A stretch of DNA of 64,000 bases from Allopontixanthobacter sediminis (GTDB lineage: Bacteria; Pseudomonadota; Alphaproteobacteria; Sphingomonadales; Sphingomonadaceae), in assembly GCF_009828115.1 (NCBI RefSeq), contig NZ_WTYL01000003.1:258501-322500 (forward strand), read 5' to 3'. The notes beneath the pieces were generated by a model. It was not told the DNA's origin and ran no database searches. It saw nothing but the letters and a program-made list of their open reading frames with translations. The position numbers and the translations under genes are program-made. The stretch's first letter is position 1. Each line of letters opens with the position of its first letter. Positions 2,269-5,237 of this stretch are shown here, piece by piece.

Positions 2269-2634
2269 ATGGCGCTGATTTCGATATTCCCCAAGGCGGA
2301 ACCCAAACCGGACAATGCCTCGGACGTTTTCCCAATGCCGGGCGACAACGCCCGTGCAGAATCGGTCCAGAGATTGCAGATCGGCCTGGCCGGCCTCGGC
2401 ATGATGGTCCTGCTGATCGGTCTGGCGCAGGTGGTCTATGACCGCGCCCAGATGTCCGAGGCGGAAACGGTTCCCGCCGCTGCGGCGACAGTCGCACCAA
2501 AAGAAGCCGAGCCGGTCCAAAGCGATCCCCTGGCCGAAGCCGGGGTAGTACCCGACCTCCCGAGCGAACCGGTCAGCCAACCCACCCAGGAACCGGCGAT
2601 CATGCCGGAGCAGGGCAATGCCCAGCGACCCTGA
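2269..2634 (+). CDS. Hypothetical single-pass membrane protein
   Basis: Unrecognised protein of 121 residues. There is a short polar N-terminus, one hydrophobic segment at about residues 36-56 (GLAGLGMMVLLIGLAQVV), and then a Pro/Glu/Ala-rich, low-complexity tail to the end. The ATG at 2269 is used because an upstream TTG (2233) would overlap the cysK stop and lacks a ribosome-binding site. Its end overlaps the start of the next membrane protein by 17 bp, so the two are probably translated together. The composition suggests a small anchor with a periplasmic or cytoplasmic disordered tail; no function can be given. Confidence 0.7.
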   Translation: MALISIFPKAEPKPDNASDVFPMPGDNARAESVQRLQIGLAGLGMMVLLIGLAQVVYDRAQMSEAETVPAAAATVAPKEAEPVQSDPLAEAGVVPDLPSEPVSQPTQEPAIMPEQGNAQRP

Positions 2635-3424
2635 CAGCCCGCCTTCGGGCAAGACTGACGGCACGCGCCTGACTGTCCAGCGCCGCTTCGCCGCGGCTAT
2701 CGCCCTGACATTCCTTGTCGCAGGGCTGGGCGCACGGGCTTTATCTTCGCCGACCGAACGCCGCTCGCTCGCCTTGATGGGCACCCTGCCGATCTATTGG
2801 GGCGAGGCAGCCGGGGTCGAAGAACTGATCGCTGGTGATGCCCCGCCGCATTGGGCCCGCGGTGCGTTGGAAAAGGAATACGAACTCGTTCCGCTCGATA
2901 CCTTGGCCGGACTCCAGGGGCTTGCCTCTCCCGGAGCACCAGAGCGCATGATGCTTGCCCAGCCGCGCCCCTTGTCCGGCGCGGAGAATGTCGCGCTGGA
3001 TGGCTGGGTACGGGACGGCGGCCAGCTTTTGCTGTTTGCCGATCCTATGCTGACCGGCCACTCGCGATTTTCAGTCGGAGACCGCCGCAGGCCTCAGGAT
3101 GTTATCCTGCTTTCCCCGATCCTTTCGCGCTGGGGTTTGGAATTGCAGTTCGATGACCAGCAGGACGAGAGTGAACGGACGGTGCAGTTCGGTGACATAC
3201 CGTTGCCGACGCGCCTCGCAGGCAGCTTCCGGATTGCCGCAACCTCGCCCGGAGCACCTGCCGATTGCACCCTGGAAGCTGGCGGCTTGGTCGCGGATTG
3301 CGTCATTGGAGAAGGGCGCGCACTGATTGTCGCCGACGCCGCGGTTCTGGAGCAGGACGGTGACCAAGCCGTACGCGAATCCGCTTTAGAATCGCTGACC
3401 GGTCGCGCATTTCCCGACCGCTGA
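2618..3424 (+). CDS. Membrane-anchored GldG/DUF4350-like protein
   Basis: 268 residues. One N-terminal hydrophobic segment at about 22-42 is followed by an extracytoplasmic domain. The run LAQPRPLSGAENVALDGWV, then GGQLLLFADPML and RRPQDVILLSPIL, resembles the Rossmann-like domain of GldG/DUF4350 proteins, which are often substrate-side partners of ABC transporters. No ABC ATPase or permease gene is next to it here, so the assignment is only to a fold family. It overlaps the preceding small membrane protein by 17 bp and is the last gene before the dcw leader. It may act in the envelope; the specific role is unknown. Confidence 0.65.
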   Translation: MPSDPDSPPSGKTDGTRLTVQRRFAAAIALTFLVAGLGARALSSPTERRSLALMGTLPIYWGEAAGVEELIAGDAPPHWARGALEKEYELVPLDTLAGLQGLASPGAPERMMLAQPRPLSGAENVALDGWVRDGGQLLLFADPMLTGHSRFSVGDRRRPQDVILLSPILSRWGLELQFDDQQDESERTVQFGDIPLPTRLAGSFRIAATSPGAPADCTLEAGGLVADCVIGEGRALIVADAAVLEQDGDQAVRESALESLTGRAFPDR

Positions 3425-3789
3425 TTCCGGATCGGGGATAATACGGGAAACGAATCCTCCATCCTCCGAGTCTCTCTCGCACGCCACCTGAAATGTCGGA
3501 AAACTCACGGTATTTCGGGGCCGATCCAATGCCCTTAACCAGAAAAATTGTCGAAATTAAGATCATAAATTCAGATAGATACCGTGTTATCCCGTAAAAA
3601 ACCCTAATTTTCCCTTCCATCGACCTCGCGCCCGCGTTAATACCATTGCTCATCGGACAAATCGTCTCGTGCGCGCCGTGCAATTGCAGGGTGGCCACCC
3701 GTAATTGCGTGCGGGTGGGAGCGGAGAAGGCGTGTCTGCAAATGGGGTCCTCGGCGCGAAGAGGGCTCCCAGAGCGGGGAAATGGGGAA
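3425..3789 (+). promoter_or_regulatory. Leader/promoter region of the dcw cluster
   Basis: This 365-bp non-coding gap precedes mraZ. It contains three GANTC sites within 50 bp (3423-3427, where the first overlaps the previous stop region, 3452-3456 and 3468-3472). An AT-rich block at about 3530-3615 is unlike the surrounding GC-rich DNA and includes TTAACCA at 3535-3541. A GC-rich stretch leads to mraZ. The AT-rich block is the most likely promoter location, but no -35/-10 pair stands out. The canonical 10-bp-phased TGGG repeats bound by MraZ in E. coli are not seen. The mraZ frame is open back to 3646; that extension is taken to be leader. Confidence 0.5.
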
Positions 3790-4290
3790 GTGTCAGGCGC
3801 GGATTTCGGAGGGTATAATGGACAGGCTTATTCGCCAGTAGGCGATAAGGACCGGTTCGTGCTGCCTCCGCAATTCCGCAACGCCGTCAAGGAATCTTCC
3901 AACGGTCGGATGCTCTGCCTGGTCAAGCACCAGAAGCTCAAATGTCTCGTCGGCTTCGGGCAGTCCCGCCACGCGGAACTGGAAGCACAACTCGACCGCG
4001 AAGAAGAAGTCGCCATCCGAGTTGGCCGCGATTTCGACCGTGATACCCGTGCATCGCAATTGTTCGGCTATGTCACGATCCCGTTCGACGACAGCGGCCG
4101 CTTCGTGATGCCCGATCACATTCGCACGCTGGCGAACATCGAGGACGGTTTGTTCTTCAACGGTGCCGGCCGTTTCTTCACCATCTGGAACCCTGCGGAA
4201 CTCGCCCGGATGGACGATGAATGGATTGGCGCTAAAGCCGCCTGCGACAGCCTGATCGCCGAAGCGCAGACCAAGGGACGCGGCAAATGA
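3790..4290 (+). CDS. mraZ: Transcriptional regulator MraZ
   Basis: First gene of the division and cell wall cluster; a DNA-binding protein related to AbrB/SpoVT that in other bacteria represses its own dcw promoter. 166 residues with the expected two repeats: [12 protein letters not shown] near residues 19-30 and [14 protein letters not shown] at 99-112. The start is the GTG at 3790, giving [16 protein letters not shown], the usual alphaproteobacterial N-terminus, with GGGGA about 10 bases upstream. The stop overlaps the rsmH start by 4 bp. The MraZ target here is not evident, since the leader lacks the classical repeat array. Confidence 0.93.
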
Positions 4291-5237
4291 GCGGCGCTGG
4301 CCCCACTTCACCCCATGTCCCCGTGTTGATGCAGGAATGCGTTGCGGCCTTGGCCCCGGCGCCCGGTGACGTGATTGTCGATGCGACCTTCGGCGCGGGC
4401 GGATACAGCCGGATGCTGCTGGATGCGGGCGCGACGGTGCACGCGTTCGACCGCGATCCGGATGCAATTTCCGCTGGCAGCAAATGGCCCGAAACCCGGG
4501 AAGACCCGCCGCGGCTGGTACTGCACGAACGCCGTTTTTCCGAAATGGCCGAAGCGCTGGCCGAAGTTGGCGTCGAGCAGGTTGACGGTGTCGCGATGGA
4601 TATCGGCGTATCTTCCATGCAGCTCGACCAGGCGGAGCGGGGTTTTGCCTTTTCGCAGGATGGGCCGCTCGACATGCGCATGTCGCAGGACGGCATGAGT
4701 GCCGCCGATTTCCTCAACACCGCCAGCGACGAAGCAATTGCCAACGTCCTTTATCTCTATGGCGAAGAGCGCCAGTCCCGCCGCGTTGCCCGGGCCATCG
4801 TGGCAGCGCGCCCGCTGGCGACGACCGGTGAACTCGCCCGAGTGGTACGTAGCGCGCTCGGCTATCACCCCGGTGCGCCGAAGGATCCCGCTACGCGCAG
4901 TTTTCAGGCCATTCGCATCCATGTGAATGCGGAACTCGACGAATTGACCGGCGGTCTTTCCGCGGCCGAAAAGGTTTTGCGCGAAGGTGGCAGACTAGCT
5001 GTCGTCAGCTTTCACAGCCTGGAAGACCGTATCGTGAAACGTTACCTGCGCGATGCGTCCGCCACCGGCGGCGGTTCACGGCACATGCCCGAAGCAGAAC
5101 CGAAACCCGCGATCTTCACGGAAGTTTCGAAGGCAATTCGCCCGTCCGCACGGGAAGTTAATGATAATCCGCGCGCTCGTTCGGCAACATTGCGTCATGC
5201 CGTCCGCACAGCAGCGCCGGCGAGGGAGGCCGCATGA
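4287..5237 (+). CDS. rsmH: 16S rRNA m4C1402 methyltransferase RsmH (MraW)
   Basis: S-adenosylmethionine-dependent N4-methylation of C1402 in 16S rRNA. 316 residues, the normal length. The SAM site is [10 protein letters not shown] (residues 32-41). The family motifs [11 protein letters not shown] and [14 protein letters not shown] follow, with [13 protein letters not shown] toward the C-terminus. The start overlaps mraZ by 4 bp and the end overlaps ftsL by 4 bp. The C-terminus is basic ([15 protein letters not shown]), consistent with rRNA binding. This placement directly after mraZ is the standard dcw order. Confidence 0.96.

Follow-up and report, generated by a model that had tools for sequence, protein, structure and literature searches.

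Direct repeats with a 10-bp period at mraZ are the known form of the MraZ operator, and repression loops of the lac/gal type use phased distal operators. In the accessible text of two MraZ studies, the published boxes contain GTG (PMC7761207, PMC8475190), and the array of Burkholderia cenocepacia is placed downstream of the −10 element (PMC7761207). At the Caulobacter ctrA P1 promoter, GcrA protects the −35 to −10 region, and Caulobacter regions bound by GcrA are richer in GANTC than random DNA, according to the available portion of PMC3667746. The extended motif YGAKTCK is used for Brevundimonas and relatives in the available portion of PMC7987155. As far as the accessible excerpts go, mraZ mRNA is a putative target of the Caulobacter RNA CcnA, and CtrA sites precede mraZ in S. 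meliloti (PMC8959179, PMC4414408). Transcription start data have been published for Novosphingobium aromaticivorans (PMC7471390). In the literature open to our searches, we found no control of mraZ by GANTC or GANTC cluster at mraZ, no distal MraZ operator and no mraZ leader RNA.

We analysed the DNA upstream of mraZ in a 64-kb stretch (the window) and in related genomes. The comparison shows a conserved control region with a promoter, two box arrays, helical phasing and a covarying RNA; the identity of the bound proteins, a DNA loop and a role of methylation are inferred.

Matches to mraZ were found in 115 of the 119 genomes covered by the family search. The mraZ loci of five genus mates plus family members were oriented for the leader set. 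Of its 94 leaders, our own included, 90 came from these 115 genomes and four from further genus mates; the 25 matched genomes left out were mostly the lowest-scoring ones, and some were truncated. Set 1 consisted of the 49 leaders with a full-length match of at least 26 bits to the RNA model R1, leaving out L019 (partial) and weaker ones. For set 2, we used 55 of 65 named loci (10 share contigs with set 1), and all of these except L204 and L230 gave a match in place (53 loci). Three leaders without AT at the start were dropped, which left 50, and GANTC was counted in the 49 with enough upstream DNA. De-replication clustered 98 of 99 leaders into 77. The comparison with other families used the best 30 matches of a six-frame family search. 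Alignment A4 had been built to fit the model, with weak and antisense matches among its members, and was excluded as evidence.

The GANTC cluster upstream of mraZ

The genes at the locus are as follows.

2618 to 3424, plus strand: upstream ORF, 268 aa, weak PF09822 match below the cut-off; ends inside the GANTC cluster
3790 to 4290, plus strand: mraZ, 166 aa, GTG start proposed; PF02381 at 28.4 bits (cut-off 23)
4287 to 5237, plus strand: ORF, next dcw gene, which by position we take to be mraW/rsmH

Among the named relatives, our MraZ is 90% identical to that of Altererythrobacter LH_M46 and 71% identical to that of Allopontixanthobacter confluentis, which points to an Erythrobacteraceae-like bacterium close to the former. 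Our MraZ reads GDKDRF in the first conserved loop, where close relatives read GDKGRF. In one relative (L018, G109:C1:1255333-1255803), the mraZ match has one internal TGA.

Three GANTC sites upstream of mraZ had been noted in the original prediction, and direct reading located all of them (GATTC at 3423, GAATC at 3452, and GAGTC at 3468). With two additional GAATC at 3377 and 3389, the cluster comprises five GANTC in 96 bp. Distances below are from the predicted transcription start.

3377 to 3381: GANTC site 1 (GAATC), −273, inside the end of the upstream ORF
3389 to 3393: GANTC site 2 (GAATC), −261; the minus strand fits YGAKTCK
3423 to 3427: GANTC site 3 (GATTC), −227, overlapping the stop codon of the upstream ORF
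3452 to 3456: GANTC site 4 (GAATC), −198
3468 to 3472: GANTC site 5 (CGAGTCT, fits YGAKTCK), −182, among the commonest positions in relatives

The end of the upstream ORF (2618-3424) carries or overlaps three of the five sites. GANTC is avoided overall in the window, since 91 sites (1 per 703 bp) were observed versus 289 ± 14 in 40 dinucleotide shuffles. Under uniform placement of the 91 sites, at least five GANTC in 100 bp has P = 0.0016, and the cluster is the densest place in the window. The cluster goes beyond chance because it recurs in relatives. One triple-site GANTC spacing pattern, searched through all 3.16 Mb (6 contigs) of our genome, had 15 matches, some overlapping, versus 6 for the reversed control, and two of the 15 fall at the mraZ cluster.

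A dense intergenic GANTC run with four overlapping matches to the triple-site pattern was seen elsewhere in our genome, at C2:497187-497323 (L006-L008). Judged from the ORF sequences, its neighbors are presumably a proA-like gene on one side and, on the other, a gene whose C-terminus resembles M23 peptidases, and it is possibly a second methylation-linked wall-gene promoter.

The sites had been expected to be conserved in close relatives, and this was borne out. At −305 to −100 from the predicted start, 69 of the 77 de-replicated sphingomonad leaders have at least one GANTC, 44 at least two and 21 at least three; eight have none, and the site positions differ between species. Counting at −430 to −250 from mraZ codon 1 gave 83 sites in the 54 closer leaders (45 ± 6 in shuffles) and 55 in the 40 more distant leaders (28 ± 5). 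None of 200 shuffles reached either count, and seven control palindromes gave 9 to 36 per group. The flanking DNA at −610 to −430 holds 1.7 and 2.1 GANTC per kb in the closer and distant leaders, respectively. The second leader set showed the same picture, with at least one GANTC at −305 to −100 from the predicted start in 47 of 49.

The positions are also phased with the DNA helix relative to the promoter, weakly but significantly (R = 0.32 at 11.4 bp, n = 141, 0/4000). The p values of 12 control motifs ranged from 0.02 (CCGG) to 1.0, and CCGG alone fell below 0.05. Of two earlier tests on fewer leaders, one gave p = 0.006, which rose to 0.08 once genus mates were removed, and the other p = 0.02. 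We had at first judged the GANTC phasing not robust and reopened the question after more leaders were added. The middle base is G or C in 34 of 84 cluster sites of the closer group, versus 35 of 151 in flanking plus downstream DNA and 11 of 39 at −240 to 0.

The cluster could be a by-product of a general intergenic GANTC enrichment in alphaproteobacteria, favored by a long intergenic region and without any function at mraZ. General over-representation between genes is put at 1.5-fold or more (Gonzalez 2014, as cited in the accessible part of PMC7987155), and at least three sites within 50 bp somewhere in the window are not striking by themselves (P = 0.16). However, the enrichment at mraZ leaders is about 8-fold and peaked (in the second set, 10.3 per kb at −305 to −100 versus 1.3 per kb at −800 to −400), it exceeds shuffles and control palindromes, and the next 180 bp of the same leader (−250 to −70 from mraZ) are less enriched, at 4.0 and 4.3 per kb. 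Together with the phasing, these observations at the mraZ leaders speak against the by-product explanation, which we consider rather unlikely.

Beyond the sphingomonads, one of the 30 other-family mraZ loci (L132) has three GANTC within 100 bp upstream of mraZ, and a strong cluster is therefore a sphingomonad feature as far as tested. The density across these loci was 3.1 per kb at −700 to −240 from the matched domain versus 2.4 over whole loci. Judged by this comparison, the GANTC cluster at mraZ is not a general alphaproteobacterial feature. At L132, the three sites lie within 56 bp just upstream of mraZ in a GANTC-rich region (4.1 per kb). A further GANTC at 3892, inside mraZ, occurs at the same place in many relatives (+51 from an anchor motif; 30 of 34 loci used, with four lacking the anchor motif left out), and its recurrence may simply follow conserved codons.

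Promoter and leader RNA

The transcript would begin at the following elements.

3615 to 3620, plus strand: −35 element TTCCAT, in a gap-free conserved column block
3638 to 3643, plus strand: −10 element TAATAC, 17-bp spacer, no T at −7
3650 to 3652, plus strand: predicted transcription start, from the distance to the −10 element; the RNA model match begins here
3650 to 3741, plus strand: leader RNA, predicted three-way junction; helix P1 pairs 3654-3659 with 3733-3738, followed by P2 and P3; 72.7 bits to R1

When the 49 leaders were aligned on the RNA start, gap-free columns read TTccaT at −35 to −30 and TAnnAc at −12 to −7, the final c being below 60%. The 50 new leaders repeated these columns (T−35 92%, T−34 88%, T−12 90%, and A−11 94%). 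TTCCAT-17-TAATAC fits the alphaproteobacterial sigma70 pattern (−35 TT(G), spacer of 16-18 bp, −10 TANNAN), with C rather than G as the third −35 base. Most alphaproteobacterial promoters lack T at −7, according to the available part of PMC8407463. From these conserved columns, 3615-3643 is a sigma70-type promoter with exact spacing and a start predicted at about 3650. A promoter-like GTGTCA-18-TATAAT at 3790-3819 was rejected for lying inside mraZ, and no terminator-like site was found at 3300-3900.

The RNA emerged only through comparison. Folding 3600-3830 as a single sequence gave no advantage over shuffles (z −0.4). In the MAFFT alignment, which used 38 of 42 kept regions, covariation reached 0.416, versus 0.230 ± 0.014 in shuffled alignments (0/500) and 0.08-0.16 when the structure was slid. 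With the structure set by hand on this alignment, 84.8% of alignment cells can pair. Helix P1 is favored by construction because the region ends were chosen by P1 complementarity, and P2 and P3 are free of this selection. RNAalifold on the same alignment recovered only parts of P2 and P3.

The RNA model matched 112 of 298 family genomes at E ≤ 0.01, with one copy each, and none of the 30 other-family loci at E ≤ 1. In our genome, 3650-3741 is the only strong match; there are two weak ones, of 26.6 and 21.6 bits, neither accompanied by a mraZ match. Among loci found by the RNA alone in previously unused genomes, mraZ was directly downstream in 11 of 11 (the check covered 11 of 12 such genomes, all except L159, which is on a short contig). 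Rfam gave no match in the window at E ≤ 1, except for an unrelated sub-threshold one on the opposite strand at 3404-3473, and none in 17 relatives at E ≤ 0.1. Since a conserved promoter with exact spacing lies just upstream, the dcw transcript, the start of which is predicted, very probably begins with this RNA, which seems to represent a family not described before. We dropped a short upstream ORF beginning at a conserved GTG of the RNA, as its frame did not look kept by eye.

Box arrays and the region between them

Three further elements lie between the upstream ORF and the promoter.

3435 to 3448, plus strand: A1, distal operator-like pair GGGA-N6-GGGA, 10-bp period, first box at −215
3569 to 3581, plus strand: IHF-like core, two mismatches to WATCARNNNNTTR, at −81
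3590 to 3614, minus strand: A2, proximal MraZ-box-like array, CCC at 3591, 3602 and 3612 (minus-strand GGG), adjoining the −35 element upstream

In aligned leaders, TCCC boxes with a 10-bp period abut and partly overlap the −35 element (53 of the 54 closer leaders were surveyed; L010 was left out). The family has the form of a MraZ operator, with tandem units of about 10 bp directly upstream of mraZ that are rare elsewhere. The units read CGGGA/GGGA and do not carry a GTG core. A2 in the window has spacings of 11 and 10 and a degenerate fourth box, for which reason our genome gives no match to the strict four-box pattern. Across 99 genomes, this pattern had 32 matches in 25 genomes, with 6 for the reversed control. 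The eight strict arrays away from mraZ are near this control level. One strict array near mraZ (G021) has the A1 orientation. We infer MraZ binding and take the TCCC/GGGA array A2 as a putative MraZ operator. A reading of GTTATCCCG as a DnaA box was dropped in favor of the TCCC array.

It is rather improbable that the period-10 boxes and A1 belong to a regulator other than MraZ. The GGGA letters are indeed unlike the GTG-type boxes elsewhere, and the clade has a divergent MraZ, which scores 28 bits against PF02381; our own genome was unmatched in the six-frame family search. However, 24 of the 32 strict arrays, from 19 genomes, are no more than 270 bp away from a mraZ match, and TCCC-N6-TCCC precedes mraZ in 24 of 30 other-family loci versus 0 of 30 in a downstream control stretch. 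A direct repeat of 10-bp period at mraZ is itself the known operator form.

A1 has the opposite orientation to A2, lies 155 bp above it in the window and is surrounded by the five GANTC sites. The pair is present in 41 of 49 set 1 leaders and 43 of 50 set 2 leaders (missing in 8 and 7, respectively) and in none of the 30 other-family loci. Its distance to the promoter is mostly about −215, −204, −194, −183, −172 or −161. For the phasing analysis, 40 leaders with A1 at −300 to −100 were taken and genus mates were removed by hand, leaving 29, one per genus. In these, R was 0.77 at 10.8 bp, and 0 of 5000 jittered sets were as high. With the phase set beforehand, 43 new leaders, genus mates included, repeated the result (z = 6.4, 0/20000), as did the de-replicated set, in which 62 of 77 leaders had A1 (R = 0.73, 0/4000). 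A DNA loop would be expected to keep the A1-promoter distance at whole helical turns in different species. The best A1 period (10.8) is unlike the best GANTC period (11.4).

Between A1 and A2, 32 of 49 leaders have an IHF-like core, with at most two mismatches to the IHF core consensus WATCARNNNNTTR, at position −81 precisely, which ranked first among 380 offsets. With −81 preset, 35 of 50 new leaders had it, and elsewhere the mean was 0.3-0.4 leaders per position. A-rich columns at −96 to −90 provide the upstream A-tract that belongs to the form of such a site. The core is likely a DNA-bending site.

An AT-rich stretch at 3535-3563 contains a second sigma70-like candidate, TTAACC-17-TAAGAT, which is common in relatives and not fixed in position. 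This weaker promoter, or one nearer the GANTC sites, might be controlled by GcrA/CcrM, leaving the promoter at 3638 constitutive or under MraZ. In many leaders, sigma70-like matches do concentrate at 20-40 bp above A2. However, the letters and positions of these elements vary while the promoter at 3615-3643 is constant, and the IHF-like site with its A-tract also explains the conserved A/T columns there, so we regard such a division of labor as quite unlikely. We had demoted a promoter upstream of A2 once the gap-free block at 3615-3643 emerged.

A proposed composite control region and its relation to known systems

Our genome encodes a CcrM orthologue of 387 aa with PF01555 and PF18755 (RAMA domain), for which the best PDB match is CcrM 6pbd (510 bits), and a GcrA orthologue of 233 aa matching PDB 7ye1 (E 3e-30), 5yiu at the N-terminus and 5yix at the C-terminus, so that both the DNA-binding and the sigma-interacting parts are represented. 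A second short ORF of 155 aa (L105:1357-1824, contig C1 near 124314) carries a GcrA-family N-terminal domain at 28.6 bits, just above the Pfam cut-off.

The original prediction linked CcrM and GcrA to expression of the dcw cluster and placed a transcription start within about 150 bp of the GANTC sites. The first claim stands in part: both proteins are encoded, and the sites are conserved and weakly phased, but they lie away from the promoter. The second does not hold for the conserved promoter, since even the closest site is 182 bp upstream of its predicted start. Regulation of the dcw operon by CcrM/GcrA is putative.

Direct activation, in which GcrA on methylated GANTC would act with sigma70 at the mraZ promoter as at Caulobacter mipZ or ctrA P1, is hardly probable. 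It would agree with the encoded orthologues, with the conserved cluster and with the fit of the sites at 3389 and 3468 to YGAKTCK (motif from the accessible part of PMC7987155). However, ctrA P1 is protected at −35 to −10 (available portion of PMC3667746), and no GANTC was found at or next to the −35 and −10 elements of the conserved promoter, the nearest being at −182; direct GcrA activation by the usual geometry is therefore unlikely here. Over 139 GANTC sites and offsets from −60 to +90, no short spacing to a −10-like element was constant, and the top −10-like offsets were +67 to +88. The extended motif was not clearly enriched in the closer group (33 of 84 leader sites versus 46 of 151 in flanking plus downstream DNA and 7 of 39 at −240 to 0).

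We prefer a reading in which the upstream GANTC sites feed into a looped complex. It is quite possible, if just short of probable, that they form the upstream arm of a composite, mraZ-led dcw control region that combines a MraZ loop, an IHF bend and a methylation input. MraZ would bind A1 and A2 and repress its own operon via a DNA loop, and an IHF-like protein would bend the DNA between the arrays, helping the loop. After fork passage, the GANTC sites would be hemimethylated and then re-methylated by CcrM. Their m6A state, either by itself or via GcrA, would alter how far the upstream arm is occupied, and repression could thereby be relaxed during an interval tied to replication. The structured 5' end of the mRNA would then set its stability or mraZ translation. 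The full scheme, a sphingomonad division and wall operon run by a replication-gated, IHF-bent MraZ loop that is switched by hemimethylation and re-methylation, with post-transcriptional control of mraZ by the leader RNA, is a tentative proposal and on the whole doubtful.

The conserved control region could tie division-gene expression to DNA replication, and it bears on how alphaproteobacteria other than Caulobacter couple the two. The locus supplies parts that can be mutated, namely five methylation sites, two phased arrays, an IHF-like site, a promoter and an RNA. The helical phasing across species amounts to a looping prediction that is open to laboratory test.

Like the Caulobacter GcrA/CcrM promoters (mipZ, podJ, and ctrA P1), this locus comes with CcrM and GcrA orthologues, and multiple GANTC sites precede a division gene. 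Unlike at those promoters, where GANTC lies at −35/−10, the five sites are at −182 to −273 and are accompanied by two box arrays and an IHF-like site. The leader resembles the cis-regulatory leaders in Rfam in being a covarying multi-helix 5' UTR structure with one copy per genome, located before mraZ wherever checked, although it matches no Rfam family.

As with the MraZ boxes of E. coli, Burkholderia cenocepacia and Mollicutes, direct repeats of about 10 bp lie before mraZ near the promoter, and strict arrays in relatives are mostly at mraZ. The differences are that the units here are minus-strand GGGA instead of GTG-containing, that the array is at the −35 element and not downstream of the −10 element as in B. 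cenocepacia, and that a second, distal pair exists which is inverted and phased. Compared with lac/gal-type loops, the phasing here appears across species and not in a construct, and the regulator is a presumed one; the likeness lies in two operators, helical phasing and a possible bending protein between them.
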